Source: Macromonas nakdongensis
Lineage (GTDB): Bacteria > Pseudomonadota > Gammaproteobacteria > Burkholderiales > Burkholderiaceae_C
NCBI RefSeq assembly: GCF_002837145.1
Contig: NZ_NWMV01000019.1
Location: forward strand, 1-64,000
DNA: 64,000 nucleotides
Direction of reading: 5' to 3'
In this document: positions 2,357 through 42,010 of the stretch, piece by piece
Position numbering within the stretch: position 1 is the stretch's first letter
How the letters are laid out: each line of letters opens with the position of its first letter
Translations under genes and position numbers: made by a program
The notes under the pieces: generated by a model
Databases searched by the model: none
What the model saw: only the letters and a program-made list of their open reading frames with translations
Told to the model about the DNA's origin: nothing

Positions 2357-3397
2357 ATGTCGCGAAATCCCAGCAATGCGCAAGTTCAGATCGACGATCT
2401 GTTGGAGCGGGCGGTCGCACAGGCGGGTGTTCACGCCGAAGCGGCGCGGGGCTGTTTGCACGAGGTGTTCGCTGAGTTGGCCCGGGGTTCGGTGTGGCCG
2501 GTGCCTTCGATAGCCAAGCCGGTGCTGGCCAGGCTGTGTGCCGAGGCGCTGGATGCGGGCATCGAGCCGCCGGTGGTTCGGCGCTTCATCGCGCACTGTG
2601 AACTGGCGCCGGAGCCGGGTGCCTCGCTGAACTGGCCTTGGCCGGTGCGGGTACACACCCTGGGCCGGTTTGCGGTGTTTTGTGATGACAAGCCGCTGAC
2701 GTTCACGGGCAAGTCCCCGCGCAAGGCGCTGGAGCTGTTGCAGGCCCTGATCGCCCACGGCGGCCGCGAGGTGCGCACCACCGTGTTGATGCAAAGCCTG
2801 TGGCCCGAGGAGAGCAGCAGCAATCTGCGCAACCTGTTCGACAACACCTTGCACCGTTTGCGCAAGCTGTTGGGGCCGCAGGAGGTGCTGCACGTCCACA
2901 ACGCCAAGCTGACGCTCGACGCCAGCCGTTGTTGGGTGGATGCCTGGGCGTTCAACCGTCTGACTGCGCCGTGCGCTGCGGCACTGGTGGAGCCCGGCCA
3001 CGAGCGGGCCCCTGTGTCGGAGGCCGAGGCCCGCGCCGCCCTGCGCCTGTATTCGGGCCATTTTTTGCAGTCCGAATCGGAAGAGCCCTGGTCTTTGCCT
3101 TACCGAGACCGCTTGCGCAACCGCTTCCACCGCCTGGTCCGGGTCCTGGGTGAACACCTGGAGCAGGCCGGGGATTGGGAGGGCGCCGCCGAGATTTACG
3201 AGCGGGGATTGGAAGTCGACAATCTGGCGGAGGTGTTCTACCAGCACCTGATGGCTTGCCACCAGCGCATGGGCGAGCACGCCGAGGCCCTGCGGGTGTA
3301 CCGCCGGTGCCGGGAGTTGCTGTCCATCGTGCTGGGGGTGGCGCCTTCGCCCCGCACCGAAAGCCTGCGCCGCGTGTCCCTGTCGATGGCGCCTTGA
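2357..3397 (+). CDS. SARP/BTAD-family transcriptional regulator
   Basis: A 346-residue regulator. Residues 1-90 are an unassigned N-terminal part. Residues about 97-190 form an OmpR/PhoB-like winged helix (RVHTLGRFAVFCDD, then SPRKALELLQALI and the LWPE and LHRLRKLLG elements). Residues about 200-340 form a bacterial transcriptional activator (BTAD) domain of helical TPR-like repeats (YERGLEVDNLAEVFYQHLM). Start 2357 is chosen because a strong GGGAGGGG ribosome binding site precedes it; a GTG at 2324 and an ATG at 2342 are in frame but less well placed. SARP proteins activate promoters by binding 11-bp-spaced direct repeats just upstream of the -10 box. Two such sites lie in this locus, before the giant gene and before the sapC-like gene, making this the likely activator of both. 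No receiver or ATPase domain is attached, so the input signal is unknown. Confidence 0.85.
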   Translation: MSRNPSNAQVQIDDLLERAVAQAGVHAEAARGCLHEVFAELARGSVWPVPSIAKPVLARLCAEALDAGIEPPVVRRFIAHCELAPEPGASLNWPWPVRVHTLGRFAVFCDDKPLTFTGKSPRKALELLQALIAHGGREVRTTVLMQSLWPEESSSNLRNLFDNTLHRLRKLLGPQEVLHVHNAKLTLDASRCWVDAWAFNRLTAPCAAALVEPGHERAPVSEAEARAALRLYSGHFLQSESEEPWSLPYRDRLRNRFHRLVRVLGEHLEQAGDWEGAAEIYERGLEVDNLAEVFYQHLMACHQRMGEHAEALRVYRRCRELLSIVLGVAPSPRTESLRRVSLSMAP

Positions 3398-3445
3398 CCC
3401 CAGGGTCGCGCGGGGTGGCGGCCGGCGGGACTCCACGATCTTTCC

Positions 3446-3485
3446 CATTTCTACGTGATCGCTAGGTGGCACCTGCCTAGCATGG
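3446..3485 (+). promoter_or_regulatory. SARP-type promoter of the giant gene
   Basis: Direct repeats CTACGTG (3451-3457) and CTAGGTG (3462-3468) lie exactly 11 bp apart. Nine bases later comes a -10-like TAGCAT (3478-3483), and no recognisable -35 hexamer is present. The 40-bp block matches the block before the sapC-like gene at 30 of 40 positions. Transcription would start near 3490, giving a leader of about 70 bases before the ATG at 3560. Repeat spacing and position fit SARP activators; the adjacent regulator gene supports this. Functional assignment is inference. Confidence 0.7.
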
Positions 3486-3559
3486 CCTGAATTTCCGCGG
3501 TGTGGCGGATTCTGCCTGCTTTTCAGCGGGCGCTGGCCACGCCCGGGTTGGAGCGTCAT

Positions 3560-34075: not shown

Positions 34076-34092
34076 ACCGGGCGCAGGGCTTG

Positions 34093-34140
34093 CGGCCCGT
34101 GTGCTGCCCCGCAGGGGGCGGTGCACGGGCCGTTTGTTTT
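34093..34140 (+). terminator. Rho-independent terminator after the giant gene
   Basis: Stem CGGCCCGTG (34093-34101) pairs with CACGGGCCG (34124-34132), with an inner GCCCC/GGGGC stem, followed by TTTGTTTT. It lies 18 bases after the stop codon. It separates the giant transcript from the secretion cluster, which then begins from its own promoter. Confidence 0.85.
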
Positions 34141-34143
34141 GCG

Positions 34144-34183
34144 CATTTCTAGGTCATATCTACGTTGCGCCCTCTTAGCATGG
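34144..34183 (+). promoter_or_regulatory. SARP-type promoter of the secretion cluster
   Basis: Direct repeats CTAGGTC (34149-34155) and CTACGTT (34160-34166) are 11 bp apart, with a 9-base gap before TAGCAT (34176-34181). Geometry is identical to the giant-gene promoter and 30 of 40 positions match. It follows the giant-gene terminator immediately. The leader to the ATG at 34253 would be about 65 bases. Likely driven by the SARP/BTAD regulator encoded at 2357-3397 (inference). Confidence 0.7.
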
Positions 34184-34252: not shown

Positions 34253-35056
34253 ATGAGCACGCAAATGTTGATCTATGAAACCGCATTTCCCGTGTCGGCC
34301 CGTCGCCACGCCAATTGGTGTGTGGAGGCCGGGGGCGACTACGCCTTCAGTCGCAAGGTGAATTCGGTGCCCCTGATGGCGGTGGAATTCCCACCCGCGG
34401 CCAGCGAGTACGCGATTGTTTTCGCTGGCGCTGGCGAGAGCATCATGCCGGTCGTCATCCTGGGCATGCGCGGCAACGAAAATGTTTACCTCGATGCCGA
34501 GGGCGGCTGGAAGGGCAAATACATCCCCGCCTTCATCCGCCGCTACCCCTTCATTTTTTCCAGCGACAGCGACGGCAAGACCCTGACGCTGTGCATCGAT
34601 GAAGCCTTCAAAGGCTTCAATCAGGCCGGGCGGGGCGAACGCCTGTTCAACGAGGAGGGCCAGCCGACCCCCTACGTCGACAACGTCCTCAAATTCCTGC
34701 AGAACTACCAGGTGCAGTTCCAGCGCACCCAGGCCTTCTGCCGCAAGCTCAAGGAATTGGATCTGCTCGAGTCCATGCAAGCTTCTGTCACCCTGCCTGG
34801 AGGGGAGAAACTCGCCCTCACCGGGTTCATGGCCGTCGATCGCAAGCGCCTCAAGGCCTTGTCGGGCGAGGCCCTGAGCGACTTGGTGCGCACCGACGAG
34901 ATGGAGTTGATCTACCTCCACCTGGAGTCCATCCGCAACTTTTCCAGCGTGCGCGAACGGTTGGTGGTCATCCCAGGGGGCAACGCCGACACGGCGCCTG
35001 CGGCGAGTGCGGAGGTGGCCGCTGCAAAAAAGTCCGGGCAGCAGGCCGCGGCCTGA
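34253..35056 (+). CDS. SapC-family protein
   Basis: A 267-residue protein of the SapC family (named after the surface-layer export cluster of Campylobacter fetus). Typical features are the N-terminal Y-E-T-A-F-P-V segment, ANWCVEAGGDYAFSRKVNSVPL, the central GGWKGKYIPAFIRRYPFIF and the acidic LNxEGxPT-like region. The C-terminal 25 residues are Ala/Lys rich and probably disordered. No signal peptide or membrane helix is visible, so it should be cytoplasmic. Start ATG 34253 follows an AGGAAAGG ribosome binding site; the frame is open further upstream but without a better start. The biochemical role of SapC is unknown; its position as first gene of an export cluster suggests a chaperone or substrate-handling function. 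It has its own SARP-type promoter. The next gene starts 85 bases later, and a GC-rich hairpin in the gap may modulate read-through. Confidence 0.85.
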   Translation: MSTQMLIYETAFPVSARRHANWCVEAGGDYAFSRKVNSVPLMAVEFPPAASEYAIVFAGAGESIMPVVILGMRGNENVYLDAEGGWKGKYIPAFIRRYPFIFSSDSDGKTLTLCIDEAFKGFNQAGRGERLFNEEGQPTPYVDNVLKFLQNYQVQFQRTQAFCRKLKELDLLESMQASVTLPGGEKLALTGFMAVDRKRLKALSGEALSDLVRTDEMELIYLHLESIRNFSSVRERLVVIPGGNADTAPAASAEVAAAKKSGQQAAA

Positions 35057-35141
35057 ACGGCCACGCCCAACCCGTGCGCCGCGGACCCGCCTGAGGCGGC
35101 GGGCGCGACGCAGCTCCAGGCTTTTTTGCGCCTAGCTGCCG

Positions 35142-37019
35142 ATGTCAAACACCGCCTCCATCCACTCCCTGGTCCAAGAGGACCGCAGCCGGGCCGAGTC
35201 CGCGGCTTGGGCGCATTTCACCGCGCCCACCCACGCCGGGGACTTCACCAACAGCTGGCTGGGCATCCTCTGCGCGCAAATCCACCTGGCGCAAGGGGCC
35301 TTGCTCTTGTTGCGTGCCACGGATGGGGCGGACGATGGCAGCTACCTGGCCGCCGCGGTGTGGCCCGATGCGTCCAGGCCTATGCAGTACCTGGTGCCGG
35401 CCGCCACCAAAGCCCTGCGGGACCAGGCGGGCACCGTGGTGGCCCAGGACGGTGTTTCGCCGCCGAACCGGGGGCAGGCGGTGCACATCGCGTACCCGAT
35501 CGAGGTGTCGGGCGTGCTATTCGGCGCGGTGGTGGTGCACCTGTCCCCTTGTGCCGATGCCGAACTGCAGCAGGCCCTGCGCCTGGTCCACTGGGGCACC
35601 GCCTGGCTGGTGGACCACTTCCGCCAACAGCAGCAGGCCTTGCAGCAACAGCGTTTCGACCGGTTGACCCTCGTCGCCGATGCCCTGGCCACCGCCATGG
35701 AGGCACCGTTGCTGGCGCATTCGGCCACCGCCGTGGTCAACATGCTGGCCTCCCGTCTGCAGTGCGACCGGGTCAGCCTCGGGCTGGACCGGGACGGCGA
35801 GGCCGAAGTGCTCGTCATTTCCCACACCGCCACCTTCGACCGCCGCACCAACCTTGTTCGCCTGCTGGGCGATGCCATGGACGAGGTGCTGGACCTCGAC
35901 CTGACCATGGTCTACCCGCCCCCCGATGGCGACGAACTCGGCCTGCTGGCCCATGCCGCGCTGGCGCGTGAGGCGCAGGTCGCGGCCATTTGCTCCGTGC
36001 CGTTGGTGAGCGAGGGGCAAGCGCTGGGGGTTGTCACGTTCGAGCGCACCGCCGGCCCCCCCTTCGATGCCGCCGCCACCGACGTGTGCCGGGCGCTGGG
36101 GTTGGCCCTCGGGCCGGTGGTGGCGCTCAAACAGTCCAGCGAAAGAAGCGTGGTCCAACGCCTGATCGAGCGTGGGCAGGAGGCCCAGCGCGTTTTGTTT
36201 GGGCCGCGCCATCCGGGGGCCAAGCTGATCGCGCTGTCCTTGTGCCTGGTATTGCTGGTGTTCAGCGTGGTGTCGGGGGACTACCGGGTGTCCGCCCGCA
36301 CGGTGGTGGAGGGTGCGGTGCAGCGTGCCGCCGTGGCGCCTTTCAACGGCTACGTCGTGGAAAGCCTGGTCCGCGCCGGCGACACGGTCCGCCGCGGGCA
36401 GGTGCTGGCCCGGCTGGACGACAAAGACTTGCTGCTGGAGCAGACCCGCTGGTCTGCCGAGCTGCAACAACTGCAGGGCAAGCAGCGCCAGGCCATGGCG
36501 GTGCAGGACCGCGCGGCCTGGATGCAGGCCCAGGCCCAGGCCCAGCAGGCCCGGGCCCAGCTCTCCCTGGTCCAGGGACGGCTGGAGCGGGCCAGCCTGA
36601 CTGCACCGTTCGATGGCATCGTCGTCTCCGGCGATCTCAGCCAGTTGCTGGGCACCCCGGTCGAGCAGGGCAAGGTCTTGTTCGAGGTGGCGCCGCTGGA
36701 CGCCTACCGCGTCATCCTGGAGGTGGACGAGCGCGACATCGCCGACCTGAGTCCCGGGCAACGCGGCGATATGGTGCTCTCCGGTTTGCCTGGGCAGGCC
36801 CTGCCGTTCACCGTCAAGCAGATCACCCCGGTCACTTCGACACAGGACGGACGCAACCTTTTTCGGGTGGAGGCCCAGGTGGACGCCGCTTCCGACCGCT
36901 TGCGTCCCGGCATGGAGGGGGTGGGCAAGGTCGGTGTCGGCGAACGGCGCCTGATCTGGATCTGGACCCACGGCCTGATGGACTGGCTGCGCCTGGCCTT
37001 CTGGAACTGGATGCCATGA
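35142..37019 (+). CDS. GAF domain - HlyD membrane fusion protein
   Basis: A 625-residue protein. Residues about 15-170 form a first sensor-like region, and about 185-345 a clear GAF domain (from RFDRLTLVADALATAM to FDAAATDVCRALGLALGPVV). One membrane helix follows at about 360-380 (LIALSLCLVLLVFSVVSG). A HlyD-type biotinyl-lipoyl/barrel-sandwich and coiled-coil section covers about 390-520 (VAPFNGYVVESLVRAGDTVRRGQ, APFDGIVVSGDL), ending in the typical LRPGMEGVGKV and an amphipathic WIWTHGLMDWLRLAFWNW tail. Topology would place GAF in the cytoplasm and the HlyD arm in the periplasm. Membrane fusion proteins bridge inner and outer membrane export components; a GAF sensor on one is unusual and suggests ligand control of export. 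The stop overlaps the next start (ATGA, 37016-37019), so the two are coupled. Confidence 0.87.
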   Translation: MSNTASIHSLVQEDRSRAESAAWAHFTAPTHAGDFTNSWLGILCAQIHLAQGALLLLRATDGADDGSYLAAAVWPDASRPMQYLVPAATKALRDQAGTVVAQDGVSPPNRGQAVHIAYPIEVSGVLFGAVVVHLSPCADAELQQALRLVHWGTAWLVDHFRQQQQALQQQRFDRLTLVADALATAMEAPLLAHSATAVVNMLASRLQCDRVSLGLDRDGEAEVLVISHTATFDRRTNLVRLLGDAMDEVLDLDLTMVYPPPDGDELGLLAHAALAREAQVAAICSVPLVSEGQALGVVTFERTAGPPFDAAATDVCRALGLALGPVVALKQSSERSVVQRLIERGQEAQRVLFGPRHPGAKLIALSLCLVLLVFSVVSGDYRVSARTVVEGAVQRAAVAPFNGYVVESLVRAGDTVRRGQVLARLDDKDLLLEQTRWSAELQQLQGKQRQAMAVQDRAAWMQAQAQAQQARAQLSLVQGRLERASLTAPFDGIVVSGDLSQLLGTPVEQGKVLFEVAPLDAYRVILEVDERDIADLSPGQRGDMVLSGLPGQALPFTVKQITPVTSTQDGRNLFRVEAQVDAASDRLRPGMEGVGKVGVGERRLIWIWTHGLMDWLRLAFWNWMP

Positions 37020-39169
37020 GCCACCAGGCCCCGGTCACGAGCAATGCCTGGCACCGGGTGGCCGGCTTGAAGCCCCGCCTGCGTTCGCAAGCCCGTTTGT
37101 ACCGGCACCGCTACCGCGACGAGGTCTGGTACCTGCTGCAAGACCCCGCCACGGGTCGCGTCCACCGCTTCACCCCGGCGGCCCGCCTGCTGATCGCGGC
37201 CATGGACGGGCGCCGCACCGTCGACCAGTTGTGGGAGCTAGCCAACCGCCATCTGGACGATGAGGCCCCCACCCAGGACGAGGTGATTCAACTCCTGGGC
37301 CAATTGCACGCGGCCGATCTGCTGCAAAGCAACGCCACGCCCGACGCCGCCGAGTTGTTCCAGCGCGGTGAGCGCGAGAGCAAAACCCGGCGTCGCCGGT
37401 CTTGGAGCAACCCCATGGCCTTGCGCCTGCCGCTGTGGGACCCCGATGTCTTCTTGGAGCGCACCCGGGCCCTGGCCGGTCCGCTCTGGGGGCGTTGGGG
37501 GGCCCTGTTGTGGGTGGCGGTGGTGTTGCCGGCCCTGCTCCTGTTGCCGGCGCATTGGACCGCGCTCACCCACAATTTCAGCGACCGTGTGCTCGCCGTG
37601 GACAACCTCCTGCTGTTGTGGCTGGTGTTTCCCGCCCTCAAGGCCCTCCACGAACTGGGGCATGCCTACGCCACCAAGGTGGGGGGCGGCGAGGTGCACG
37701 ACATGGGGCTCATGTTCCTGGTGCTGATGCCCGTTCCCTATGTGGAAGCCTCGGCGGCCACGGTGTTCCGGTCCAAGACCCAGCGGGCCGTGGTGGGGGC
37801 CGCCGGCATGCTGGTGGAATTGTTCGTGGCCGCCCTGGCGTTTTACCTCTGGCTCCTGGTCGAACCGGGCGTGTGGCGGGCCATCCTGTTCAACGTGATG
37901 CTGGTGGCGGGCGTGTCCACCCTGGTCTTCAACGGCAATCCCTTGTTGCGCTACGACGCTTACTACATCCTGGTGGACCTGATCGAGATGCCCAACCTGG
38001 CCCAGCGTTCCCTGCGGTATTGGGCCTACGTGTTCGAGCGCCATGTGTTGCGCCTGTCCGATGTCGAACCGCCGGTGCATGCCGCTGGCGAGCGGGTTTG
38101 GCTGCTCTTTTACGGTGTGGCGTCCACGGTGTACCGGATCGTCATCACCGTCGCGATCGCGTTGTTCATCGCGGGCGAATTTTTCTTCATTGGGGTGTTG
38201 CTGGCCTTCTGGGCCGTGTTCAGCATGGCTGGGTTGCCGCTGTTCAAGGGCCTGCGCTACCTGTTCACCAGCCCCCGTCTGGGGGGACAGCGCCGGCACG
38301 GCCTGACCCTGGTGGGGGGTGTGCTGGCCACCTTTTTGCTGTTCGTGTTGCTGGTGCCCGTGCCGTTCCGCTCTCAGGCCGAAGGCGTCGTCTGGCTGCC
38401 CGACGAGGCGGTGGTCCGTGCCGGCGGCAACGGTTTCGTCGAAACCTTGCTCGCCGAGCCCGGTGCGCGCGTGTCGGCGGGCGCGCCTTTGTTGCGTTTG
38501 CATGACCCGGCGCTGGACGCCGAGGTGGCCCTGGCCGAGGCCCGTCTGGCAGAAGCCGAGGCCAATTACCACGCCCAGTTCGCGATCGACCCTGGCCAGG
38601 CGGCGGTGCTGCGCGAGCGCGTCTGGGCCGAACAGGCGGCCCTGGCCCGGGAGCGGGAGCGCGCCGCGGCCATGCTCGTGCTGTCCCGCGGGCAGGGCAC
38701 TTTTCACCTGCCGCGGGCCCAGGATGCCCCCGGGCGCTACTACCGCAAGGGCGAAATCGTGGGCTACGTGACCGACCGCCCGCCCGACGTGGCTCGGGTC
38801 GTTGTCACCCAGGCCGAGGTCGACGTGGTGCGCCAAGCCACCCGCCATGTCGAGGTGCGGCTCGCGCATGGCCTGGCCCAGGTCATCGAGGGCCGCCTGG
38901 TGCGCGAGGTGCCCGCCGGCGATCAGCGCCTGCCCAGTCCAGCCTTGTCGGTGACGGGGGGAGGGCGCATCACCGTCGACCCGAAGGACCCCCAGGGCAC
39001 CAAGACCCTGGAGCGCCTGTTCCAGTTCGACGTGCAGCTCGACCACCCGCAACGCCTTTACCTCTTTGGCCAGCGTGTGCACGTCCGTTTTGAGCACGAT
39101 TGGGAGCCGCTGGCCGTCCAGTGGTTCCGCACGGTCCGGCGGGTCTTCCTGTCGCATTTCCATGTCTAG
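37016..39169 (+). CDS. PqqD-like - M50 site-2 protease - HlyD fusion
   Basis: A 717-residue polytopic protein. Residues about 25-110 resemble the PqqD peptide-binding fold (YLLQDPATGRVHRFTPAARLL). Several membrane helices follow from about 155, with the zinc motif HELGH (212-216) in a helix and the third-ligand motif NPLLRYDAYY with Asp at 314, both characteristic of M50 site-2 proteases. After a helix near 430-452 the C-terminal part is a HlyD-like periplasmic arm (VRAGGNGFVETLLAEPGARVSAG, then a coiled coil, ending LFGQRVHVRFEHDWEPL). M50 enzymes cut substrates in or near the membrane; fused PqqD and HlyD parts suggest a peptide-recognising, export-coupled protease. I infer that it acts on the giant LEPR-XLL protein. 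The start ATG overlaps the upstream stop by 4 bases. The zinc ligands are intact. Confidence 0.88.
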   Translation: MSHQAPVTSNAWHRVAGLKPRLRSQARLYRHRYRDEVWYLLQDPATGRVHRFTPAARLLIAAMDGRRTVDQLWELANRHLDDEAPTQDEVIQLLGQLHAADLLQSNATPDAAELFQRGERESKTRRRRSWSNPMALRLPLWDPDVFLERTRALAGPLWGRWGALLWVAVVLPALLLLPAHWTALTHNFSDRVLAVDNLLLLWLVFPALKALHELGHAYATKVGGGEVHDMGLMFLVLMPVPYVEASAATVFRSKTQRAVVGAAGMLVELFVAALAFYLWLLVEPGVWRAILFNVMLVAGVSTLVFNGNPLLRYDAYYILVDLIEMPNLAQRSLRYWAYVFERHVLRLSDVEPPVHAAGERVWLLFYGVASTVYRIVITVAIALFIAGEFFFIGVLLAFWAVFSMAGLPLFKGLRYLFTSPRLGGQRRHGLTLVGGVLATFLLFVLLVPVPFRSQAEGVVWLPDEAVVRAGGNGFVETLLAEPGARVSAGAPLLRLHDPALDAEVALAEARLAEAEANYHAQFAIDPGQAAVLRERVWAEQAALARERERAAAMLVLSRGQGTFHLPRAQDAPGRYYRKGEIVGYVTDRPPDVARVVVTQAEVDVVRQATRHVEVRLAHGLAQVIEGRLVREVPAGDQRLPSPALSVTGGGRITVDPKDPQGTKTLERLFQFDVQLDHPQRLYLFGQRVHVRFEHDWEPLAVQWFRTVRRVFLSHFHV

Positions 39170-41171
39170 AGCCTTGTCCCATTCCAGCCGGGTGGATCGG
39201 GTCCTGCGCCCCTTCCCCGAACGGGCCGAGGCCGTGCCCGGCTGGCACGACCGCCTGGCCCAGTCTCTCTATGCCCACGCCGTGGCCCCGTGGCCGGCCC
39301 TGGTGCGCCAGGGCTCGGGGTGCTACCGCGACATCCTGCACACGGTGCGCGAGCACGAAGCCGGGCTGCACAGCCTCAGCGATGCCGAATTGCAGCAACG
39401 CCTGCAAGATCTGCGGCCCCAACTGCGCCGCCAGGGCCATGCGCTGCAGCCCGTGGGGGCCTGCTTCGCCGTGTTGCGGGAGGCCTCGCACCGCCTCTTG
39501 GGGCGCCGGCATTTCGACACCCAGCTGATGGGGGCCTGGGCCTTGTTGCAGGGGCGGTTGGTGGAGATGGCCACCGGCGAGGGCAAGACCCTCACCGCGG
39601 CGCTGGCGGCCTGCACCGCGGCGCTGGCCGGCCAGCCGGTGCACGTCGTCACCGTCAACGACTACCTGGCCCACCGCGATGCCGAGGAAATGGCCCCGCT
39701 CTACCGTTTCGCCGGCCTCAGCGTGGGTTGCGTGGTGCAGGGCATGTCGCCCCAGGCCCGCCGCGAAGCCTACGCCCAGCCACTGACCTACTGCACCAAC
39801 AAGGAGCTGGCCTTCGATTACCTGCGCGACCGCGTCGCCCTGGGCGATCGGGAGGGCAGCCTGCACCTGGCCCTGGAAAAGATCGGTGGCGCTGCCCAGC
39901 AGCGGTCACTGGTGCTGCGCGGTCTGCATTTCGCCATCGTGGACGAGGCCGACAGCGTGTTCATCGACGAGGCCCGCACGCCCCTGATCCTGTCGGCCAG
40001 CGGCCCGCAGGGTGAAACCGCCGACAACTGCCGACGTGCGCTCGAATTGGCCGAACTGCTGGAGCTCCACGAGGATTTCCGGCTGGATGCCCGCACCCGC
40101 CAGGTTCGGCTGTGTCCCCAGGCCATCGACAAGGTCGACGCTTTCGCCGAACCGCTGGGCGGGGTGTGGACCTCCCGGCGCGGCCGGGAGGAGCTGGTGC
40201 GCCAAGCCTTGAGTGCCCTCCACCTGTTTCACCGCGACGAGCATTACGTCGTGGCCGACGGCAAGGTGCAGATCGTGGACGAATCGACGGGGCGCATCCT
40301 GCCCGACCGGAGTTGGGAGCGTGGCCTGCACCAGATGATCGAAACCAAGGAGGGTTGCGAGCCCACCAGCGAACGCAAGACCCTGGCGCGCATCACCTAC
40401 CAGCGTCTGTTCCAGCGCTACCTGTTGCTCAGTGGCATGAGCGGAACTGCCCGGGAGGTGGCCCCCGAAATTCGGACCGTGTACGGCCTGGACGTGGCCG
40501 TCATCCCCTTGCACCGGCCTTTGGCCCGCAGGCACGAAGCCCCGCGTCTGTTTGCCACCCCGGCCGACAAGTGGCAGGCCGTGGCCGATGCGGCCGCCGG
40601 CCTGGCACAGCAACAGGGCCGGCCCGTCCTCATCGGCACGCGTTCGGTCAAGGCCTCGGAAACCATCAGCGCGGTGCTGACGGCGCGCGGTCTGCCGCAT
40701 GCCTTGCTCAACGCCAAACAAGACCAGTTCGAGGCCGCCGTGATCGCCCTGGCTGGGCAGGCCGGGCGCATCACCGTCGCCACCAACATGGCCGGCCGCG
40801 GCACCGACATCCGCCTGAGCCCCGACACCTTGTCGCCTGGCGGCCTGCACGTCATCTTGACGGAGTACCACGAATCCGCGCGCATCGACCGCCAGTTGTA
40901 TGGCCGTTGCGGCCGGCAGGGCGACCCCGGCAGTTGTTCGGTCTTCGTGTCACTGGAAGATGAAATTTTTTCCCTCCATACACCCTGGGCCCGCGCTTGG
41001 GTGGACACTTGGCTGCGGCAGGGGCGTGCCTTGCCCGCCTGGGCCATTGACGGCCTGCGACGGCTGGCGCAATGGCAGGCGGAACGCAAAAATGTCGGCA
41101 TCCGCCGCCAGAACCTGAAGGTGGATCGGCAGCTCGACCAAGTGCTTTCGTTTTCCGGGAGACAACCATGA
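39162..41171 (+). CDS. Short SecA-like preprotein translocase ATPase
   Basis: A 669-residue SecA paralogue; canonical SecA has about 840-930 residues. Walker A MATGEGKT (136-143), NDYLAHRDAE, YCTNKELAFDYLRD, DEADS (261-265) with IDEARTPLILS, VDESTGR (372-378), LSGMSGTA, ATNMAGRGTDI and motif VI GRCGRQGDPG (581-590) are all present, so the motor core should hydrolyse ATP. Only about 79 residues follow motif VI, where normal SecA has several hundred. The helical wing, most of the scaffold, the two-helix finger and the zinc tail are missing. The segment between the DEAD box and VDEsTGR is also short (about 111 residues), implying a reduced preprotein cross-linking domain. Start ATG 39162 overlaps the upstream stop by 8 bases; the frame is open back to 39066. 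Context suggests a dedicated motor for the giant protein, not the housekeeping SecA. Confidence 0.88.
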   Translation: MSRALSHSSRVDRVLRPFPERAEAVPGWHDRLAQSLYAHAVAPWPALVRQGSGCYRDILHTVREHEAGLHSLSDAELQQRLQDLRPQLRRQGHALQPVGACFAVLREASHRLLGRRHFDTQLMGAWALLQGRLVEMATGEGKTLTAALAACTAALAGQPVHVVTVNDYLAHRDAEEMAPLYRFAGLSVGCVVQGMSPQARREAYAQPLTYCTNKELAFDYLRDRVALGDREGSLHLALEKIGGAAQQRSLVLRGLHFAIVDEADSVFIDEARTPLILSASGPQGETADNCRRALELAELLELHEDFRLDARTRQVRLCPQAIDKVDAFAEPLGGVWTSRRGREELVRQALSALHLFHRDEHYVVADGKVQIVDESTGRILPDRSWERGLHQMIETKEGCEPTSERKTLARITYQRLFQRYLLLSGMSGTAREVAPEIRTVYGLDVAVIPLHRPLARRHEAPRLFATPADKWQAVADAAAGLAQQQGRPVLIGTRSVKASETISAVLTARGLPHALLNAKQDQFEAAVIALAGQAGRITVATNMAGRGTDIRLSPDTLSPGGLHVILTEYHESARIDRQLYGRCGRQGDPGSCSVFVSLEDEIFSLHTPWARAWVDTWLRQGRALPAWAIDGLRRLAQWQAERKNVGIRRQNLKVDRQLDQVLSFSGRQP

Positions 41172-42010
41172 ACGTGAACCGCTGTTTTCTCGCCGGTCTG
41201 ACCGTGCTGGCCTGGCCGGGCGGGGTGGGGGCGGCCCCTTTCGAGTGCTTGCTGGAGCCGGCGCAAACCGTCGAAATCCGCAGCGCGGTCGAGGGGCTGG
41301 TGCGCCGCATCCACGTCCAGCGTGGGGACGATGTGCGCGCCGGCCAGGTGCTCGTCGAATTGGATGCCTCGGTCGAGCGTTCGTCCGCGGCTGTCGCCCA
41401 ATACCGTGCGCAGGCCGAGGGCCGCATTGCCGCTTCCCGAAATCGCATGCAGTACGCCCAGCGCAAGACGCAGCGCTCCAACGAACTGCACCAGCAGAGT
41501 TTCATTTCTGCCCAGGCCCGGGACGAAGCCGAAACCGAGCACAACCTGGCCGAATCCGAACTGAAAGAGGCGATGGAGAACCGGGAGTTGGCCCGCTTGG
41601 AGTACCAGCGCGCCGTCGACCAGTTGAACCAGAAGACCTTGCGCAGCCCTTTCAACGGCATCGTCGTGGACCGCATGCTCAACCCGGGTGACCTGGCCGA
41701 GGCCGGCAATGGCCGCAAACCCATCCTCAAGCTGGCGCAGATCCACCCGTTGCGGGTTGAGGCCGTGTTGCCCTTGTCCACCTTTGGCAAATTGCGTCCA
41801 GGCATGGTCGGGCAGGTGACCCCGGAAGGTGGGGCGCCCCAGAAAGCCACGATCAAGGTGGTGGACCGGGTGCTCGACGCGGCCAGTGGCACCTACGGCG
41901 TGCGTCTGGAATTGCCCAATCCCCAAGGGCAGTTGCCGGGCGGCATCCGCTGCCAGGTGGAATTCTCCGAGGTGGGGGGCGGGGGTCCGGTCGCCGCGCG
42001 CGTGCGTTGA
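41168..42010 (+). CDS. Periplasmic adaptor of the HlyD / RND efflux type
   Basis: A 280-residue adaptor. It has a signal-peptide-like N-terminus (CFLAGLTVLAWPGGVGA, with likely cleavage near residue 22), a barrel-sandwich half-motif IRSAVEGLVRRIHVQRGDDVRAGQ, a coiled coil over about residues 80-165 (alternating Ala/Glu/Gln/Arg), the second half-motif LRSPFNGIVVDRML, and a beta-barrel ending near LPGGIRCQVEF. Such adaptors connect inner-membrane machines with a TolC-type outer-membrane channel. No TolC-like gene is in the window. The start overlaps the SecA-like stop by 4 bases (ATGA), making this the last gene of the coupled cluster. With it, the cluster encodes three separate HlyD-type arms, which suggests a composite periplasmic conduit. 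Confidence in the family is high; the partner channel is unknown. Confidence 0.87.
   Translation: MNVNRCFLAGLTVLAWPGGVGAAPFECLLEPAQTVEIRSAVEGLVRRIHVQRGDDVRAGQVLVELDASVERSSAAVAQYRAQAEGRIAASRNRMQYAQRKTQRSNELHQQSFISAQARDEAETEHNLAESELKEAMENRELARLEYQRAVDQLNQKTLRSPFNGIVVDRMLNPGDLAEAGNGRKPILKLAQIHPLRVEAVLPLSTFGKLRPGMVGQVTPEGGAPQKATIKVVDRVLDAASGTYGVRLELPNPQGQLPGGIRCQVEFSEVGGGGPVAARVR

Follow-up and report, generated by a model that had tools for sequence, protein, structure and literature searches.

A proteobacterial SARP-type regulator with a conserved 11-bp repeat operator and its proposed control of a giant LEPR-XLL protein and a sapC operon

The closest described systems to the locus considered here are the SARP activators AfsR, ActII-ORF4 and DnrI, in which an OmpR-type winged helix is joined to a BTAD domain and 11-bp direct repeats overlap the -35 region at a fixed distance from a poor -10 element. 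Two other activators offer partial parallels: the PHO box of PhoB stands in place of the -35 element, and HilA of Salmonella SPI-1 has a TPR-like C-terminal part and a paired-hexamer box. SARP sites have been described as direct repeats spaced 11 or 22 bp apart, the 3' copy lying 8 bp from the -10 element (PMC10936776), and elsewhere as 7-mers with spacers of 4-15 nt that overlap the -35 and are present in three copies in some cases (PMC10972967). PHO boxes are described as two 11-nt direct repeats, each of 7 conserved nucleotides plus 4 (PMC4415409). EmbR of Mycobacterium tuberculosis, which has the same two-domain fold as the protein studied here, carries an added FHA domain (PMC10936776), while HilA is presented as a proteobacterial OmpR/ToxR-family activator beside the secretion genes that it controls (PMC7232297). 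According to a 2020 survey, proteobacterial hits to the SARP profile are mostly devoid of HTH or BTAD domains and may not be typical SARPs (PMC7040171).

In the window, by which we mean the whole 64,000-nucleotide stretch of Macromonas nakdongensis DNA that was analysed, a SARP-type gene at 2357-3397 lies beside a giant LEPR-XLL gene and a sapC operon. From the sequence, this dedicated SARP very probably binds the repeats of two promoters, P1 and P2, and activates the giant-protein and sapC-operon transcripts together. What is proposed amounts to SARP activation in a proteobacterial variant. The usual context of SARPs, which is not a defining one, is actinobacterial and within a biosynthetic gene cluster, whereas the neighbours here are the LEPR-XLL gene and the sapC operon. 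Unlike the Streptomyces SARPs, the protein is proteobacterial, has variable extra N-terminal helices and would control a giant surface protein and an export operon instead of antibiotic genes; its repeat is CTAnGT, whereas that given for AfsR is CGTT(T/C)ATCG (PMC10972967). The targets also differ from those of EmbR and from the type III system controlled by HilA, the likeness to HilA being one of description. We found no published report of such a circuit (LEPR-XLL regulation, BTAD proteins with adhesins, or proteobacterial SARPs with operators) in the open-licence literature, and to our knowledge this SARP is the first candidate regulator of LEPR-XLL giant proteins.

The regulator and its clade

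The protein encoded at 2357-3397 had been read from the sequence as a winged helix plus BTAD, and profile searches bear this out: BTAD (PF03704) was matched at 77.5 bits (cut-off 22.1, E 1.8e-21) and Trans_reg_C at 25.1 bits (E 1.9e-5; slightly below its 26.2 cut-off), the OmpR-type winged helix lying directly N-terminal to BTAD. Pfam gave no match to the Response_reg receiver domain of OmpR-family response regulators in this protein.

2357-3397, + strand: SARP-type activator gene, 346 aa; BTAD, AfsR/EmbR fold, no other BTAD protein in the genome
residues ~1-95: N-terminal helices, variable
residues ~96-190: OmpR-type winged helix
residues ~160-169: recognition helix LFDNTLHRLR
residues 194-339: BTAD domain

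An AlphaFold2 model (pLDDT 83.3, pTM 0.75) has its best structural matches in AfsR and EmbR, other neighbours being mostly TPR repeats. AfsR in its transcription complex was matched with a Foldseek E of 4.9e-10 and a VIA Z of 18.1 (rmsd 4.6 over 241 residues; model residues 95-346), and EmbR with a Z of 17.1 (rmsd 4.5 over 241 residues). The modelled fold is that of a SARP, because the matches to AfsR and EmbR run across both domains. The ~95-residue N-terminal part varies among relatives and is nearly missing in some of them. HipB-like and HipA-like genes (toxin-antitoxin type) are located upstream of the SARP gene, at 229-1979.

A protein scan with one genome per species (84,980 species) yielded 67 loci, and further relatives came from a family pattern search, with matches in 2 other genomes of 399, and from its follow-up. 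Nine SARPs adjoin LEPR-XLL or sapC genes, in 8 genomes:

Macromonas nakdongensis, the window genome (G000)
Comamonadaceae strain 2FH (G068/L050)
G138, two copies
Nevskia (G423/L035)
Comamonadaceae G21597-S1 (G424/L036)
Rhodocyclaceae MAG-173 (G425/L037)
Cognatazoarcus (G426/L043)
Rubrivivax Ww161 (G790/L078)

These nine form a single clade in a tree of 102 rows (support 100/99, with the bootstrap not fully settled), which needs one label change; none of 500 shuffles was as low. By the tree labels the clade spans Comamonadaceae, Rhodocyclaceae, Zoogloeaceae, Sphaerotilaceae and Nevskiaceae. The gene directly after the SARP is the LEPR-XLL giant-protein gene in eight cases and sapC in the ninth. 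Moreover, the recognition helix reads LFDNTL(H/Y)RLR in eight of the nine clade members and LLDNTLHRLR in the remaining one, and varies in other SARP relatives. The clade consists of proteobacterial proteins that possess both SARP domains together with a matching conserved operator, as against the doubt raised in the 2020 survey (PMC7040171). The Rubrivivax SARP has a shortened BTAD end. Two SARP-LEPR-XLL loci are present in G138 (G138:C1 1893984 and 2506785), each with its own P1 box, and the box search detected just one sapC-type site in this genome.

Promoters P1 and P2 and the conserved operator

The two window promoters share the layout CTASGT-N5-CTASGT, exactly 10 nt, TAGCAT, and the operators below are defined by sequence and by conservation in orthologous loci.

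3440-3472, + strand: P1 operator, a weak repeat (3440-3450) and two repeats
3451-3461: P1 first repeat, CTACGTGATCG, with hexamer CTACGT at 3451-3456
3462-3472: P1 second repeat, CTAGGTGGCAC, with hexamer CTAGGT at 3462-3467
3478-3483, + strand: P1 -10-like hexamer TAGCAT, 10 nt past CTAGGT
34138-34170, + strand: P2 operator, a weak repeat (34138-34148) and two repeats
34149-34159: P2 first repeat, CTAGGTCATAT, with hexamer CTAGGT at 34149-34154
34160-34170: P2 second repeat, CTACGTTGCGC, with hexamer CTACGT at 34160-34165
34176-34181, + strand: P2 -10-like hexamer TAGCAT, 10 nt past CTACGT

Several claims of the sequence-only reading hold for both promoters. The repeat pitch is exactly 11 bp (starts at 3451 and 3462 for P1, 34149 and 34160 for P2), and the claimed 9 bp before the -10 box applies to the heptamer CTASGTn and becomes 10 nt when counted from the hexamer, depending on the repeat boundary chosen. 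The claimed lack of a -35 likewise stands, with no sigma-70 -35/-10 pair on the + strand near P1 or P2. The layout resembles that of SARP operators, with 11-bp direct repeats over a missing or poor -35 (the absence of a -35 being checked at the two window promoters) and a 3' repeat that lies 9 or 10 nt from the -10 where ~8 bp is usual. We detected no tandem repeats at the locus.

A search of the whole genome (3,064,983 bases, 182 contigs) for CTASGTN5CTASGTN10TANNNT gave two matches, at P1 and P2, and none for the reversed control. When up to two mismatches are allowed, the 17-mer CTASGTN5CTASGT shows no excess in the window (4 matches versus 3.95 expected); the evidence lies in the exact matches and in conservation. 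A loose window scan for a 16-mer with an extra AT gave 7 matches against 1.7 expected, of which just 2 were exact. Autoregulation of the SARP gene through a box was considered and rejected, as neither the whole-genome pattern search nor the R1 model search found a site upstream of that gene.

Comparison of orthologous loci, which the sequence-only reading had expected to show kept repeats and drifting flanks, gave this result in 14 sites from 8 genomes, each of which has a SARP of the one clade. Seven sites were found by motif (including both window sites), and five by position in the DNA read downstream of the SARP stop codon. The remaining two were picked up blind by R1, a sequence-only model that had eleven sites as its training set and was applied to seven whole genomes. 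The core letters of the seven sites that came from the motif are partly selected. Both repeats start with CTAnG in all 14 sites, and the 11-bp pitch and the 10 nt from the second hexamer to the -10-like hexamer are also identical throughout. The latter reads TAGCAT in nine of the 14 and GTGCAT in L036. A weaker third repeat, 11 bp upstream, keeps its T in every site and AT in 13. The conserved core is thus CTAnG(T), in place of the previously read CTA(C/G)GT, and the repeat pair is joined by a weak third repeat upstream. Flanking columns of the alignment are low in information, while repeat and -10 columns are fixed. The Rubrivivax operator (L078) has three complete repeats (CTAAGC, CTAAGT and CTACGC) at the same spacing; it was recognised by eye and missed by R1, whose locus scan covered 65 of the 67 loci (L062 and L064 left out). 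In Nevskia (L035 6779-6795) and Rubrivivax (L078 8063-8090), the operator and the end of the SARP gene overlap, because the stop codon TAA falls within the repeat CTAAGC. A run like GAATTTCTGCCG recurs just past the P1 -10 in G000 (window 3484-3520), G068 (L050) and G138a (L103), and may represent either an early leader element or plain homology.

In leave-one-genome-out tests real sites scored 17.8-51.2 bits, and no other position exceeded 7.3 bits, against a background of 21,244-193,078 positions per genome. Over the seven whole genomes R1 returned 13 sites at E <=3.9e-5, namely the 11 used for training and two new ones, and nothing further below E 1e-4. In Nevskia, one of the new sites precedes the start of sapC by ~86 nt and comes directly after the end of a giant-protein gene. 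The other is upstream of a LEPR-XLL ORF in the Rhodocyclaceae genome (G425), on a contig other than that of the SARP, which in this genome adjoins sapC.

The box co-occurs with this SARP clade. Among 18 control genomes without it, of which nine carry a sapC at 58-65% identity and several encode other SARP-like proteins, R1 gave no match at E <=0.01, the nearest two reaching 0.48 and 0.68, and no box was found at the SapC operons that have no SARP (L130-L138). When 399 genomes of the order were scanned under stricter filters, strong matches were returned in G000 and G138 only; four others, of 18.0-21.9 bits, fell in three genomes, two of them being near-identical orthologous stretches. No BTAD protein is encoded in any of these three genomes (G509, G642 and G622), which indicates that weak matches do arise by chance; their matches, located within or bordering unrelated genes, were rejected as sites. 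Overall, weak R1 matches elsewhere (G423:C115, G509, G642, G622, G040 and G638) reach 12-22 bits. In Cognatazoarcus, sapC lies within ~70 nt of the giant gene end and has no box of its own, as expected if both genes form one transcript. Rubrivivax (G790) has two sapC genes (54% identical) with no box within 1.5 kb, and these are left unexplained by the proposed circuit.

Proposed mechanism and rival explanations

We infer binding, activation and the role of the export operon as follows. Two SARP protomers would sit head-to-tail on the two 11-bp CTAnGT repeats (3451-3472 at P1, 34149-34170 at P2), possibly with a third on the weaker upstream repeat. Placed where the -35 is missing, the SARP would hold sigma region 4 of RNA polymerase in the manner of AfsR (sigma adaptation), and would so turn on two transcripts jointly, one for the giant LEPR-XLL protein and one for the sapC-adaptor-protease-SecA-like-adaptor operon.

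Residue comparison with AfsR is consistent with this reading. In AfsR, Arg92 is described as reading T-38, and substitution of this base or of its counterpart T-27 abolishes binding; the scaffold description in the same source implies that the -10 element is numbered -12 to -7 (PMC10936776). If TAGCAT is placed at -12 to -7, the two CTA trinucleotides have their invariant T at -38 and -27, and the residue aligned with Arg92 (Arg167) is invariant in the clade. Given this alignment and numbering convention, the repeat T would be in register with the T read by AfsR. Arg94, Lys95 and Trp74 of AfsR are conserved as Arg169, Lys170 and Trp149, whereas Arg87 (a backbone contact) is replaced by Asp162 and the beta-subunit-contacting Thr63 and Asp71 by Glu138 and Gln146. 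Three of the four sigma-R4 residues of AfsR match (Leu243, Leu247 and Val249, but not Glu246). Because the beta-contact and backbone residues are unconserved and the sigma-R4 match is partial, polymerase contacts may differ from those of AfsR; from this pattern we prefer a mechanism in which the SARP activates via sigma region 4, as AfsR does, but contacts the beta subunit differently. It becomes possible to test SARP activation with a Gram-negative polymerase. We also lean, on balance, towards the broader view that this is a proteobacterial SARP lineage which uses sigma adaptation outside Actinobacteria, with its own code of two or three CTAnGT at 11 bp, as a local switch for LEPR-XLL and SapC/SecA-like export at those promoters only.

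The 11-bp geometry had been put forward as a mark of SARPs. It matches SARP sites but is not specific to them, PhoB-type regulators having the same pitch (PMC4415409), and geometry alone was rejected as proof; the case for a SARP is hence carried by co-occurrence and clade evidence. The repeats might on that ground be bound by a PhoB/OmpR-type response regulator, the SARP gene being adjacent for other reasons. The PHO box geometry fits, CTAGGTCAT resembles CTGTCAT of E. coli PHO boxes, and strain 2FH has a sensor kinase gene upstream of its SARP. However, a PhoB-type global regulator would be expected to have further genomic sites, while the box is confined to SARP-linked loci or partner promoters in the seven whole genomes, is absent from all 18 genomes lacking this SARP, and has no other site in the window genome. 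PhoB also has a receiver domain, for which the SARP gave no match, and none of nine neighbouring proteins drawn from seven loci (a subset of the neighbours) is a response regulator. We consider this explanation unlikely.

The SARP could also bind the boxes and yet repress or only modulate both promoters, or require a co-activator; a site over the -35 would suit a repressor too, as stated for SARP sites (PMC7040171). P1 and P2 nevertheless have no -35 usable by polymerase alone, and both the BTAD domain and the AfsR-like phasing of box and -10 speak for activation, making this very improbable. Hardly credible at all is the idea that a shared promoter was copied from P1 to P2 and left the repeats as remnants, conserved by descent with no regulator: the two promoters are indeed alike within one genome and the loci orthologous, but repeat and -10 columns stay fixed across five families next to low-information flanks, and Rubrivivax keeps three full repeats at the same spacing. 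Sequence evidence thus supports the reading of the locus as a SARP circuit.

Target genes and the predicted export operon

The predicted targets of P1 and P2 are arranged as follows.

3560-34075, + strand: giant LEPR-XLL protein, ~10,171 aa, predicted target 1 (NCBIfam NF012209, 30.0 bits, cut-off 17)
34092-34133, + strand: terminator-like hairpin after the giant gene, a 19-pair stem followed by TTGTTTTG
34253-35056, + strand: sapC, predicted target 2, which opens the predicted export operon (Pfam SapC, 1.5e-72)
35142-37019, + strand: GAF and HlyD-type adaptor (domain matches; order kept in relatives)
37016-39169, + strand: PqqD-like part, intramembrane metalloprotease (HExxH) and HlyD segment (domain matches; relatives)
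39066-41171, + strand: SecA-like translocase ATPase, start codon uncertain (Pfam SecA_DEAD, 3e-100; relatives)
41072-42010, + strand: HlyD/RND-type periplasmic adaptor, last conserved operon gene, start uncertain (domain matches; relatives)

The last 1000 aa of the giant protein contain RTX repeats and a matrixin-like domain (Pfam RTX and Peptidase_M10), and the T-run of the hairpin that follows its gene abuts the P2 operator. The gene order 34253-42010 is kept in G138 and G068, and in G425 as far as the contig reaches. The P2 operon may well export the giant protein. The proposed circuit would tie the sapC/SecA-like operon and the giant protein together as one regulon, which offers a clue to the export of such proteins. 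That HlyD-type adaptors accompany a SecA paralogue here (34253-42010), beside a giant RTX protein, suggests an export route that we do not recognise. On the minus strand, the giant gene is mirrored by very long antisense ORFs of 2519 and 5580 aa (4043-34126), presumably because of codon usage and high G+C.
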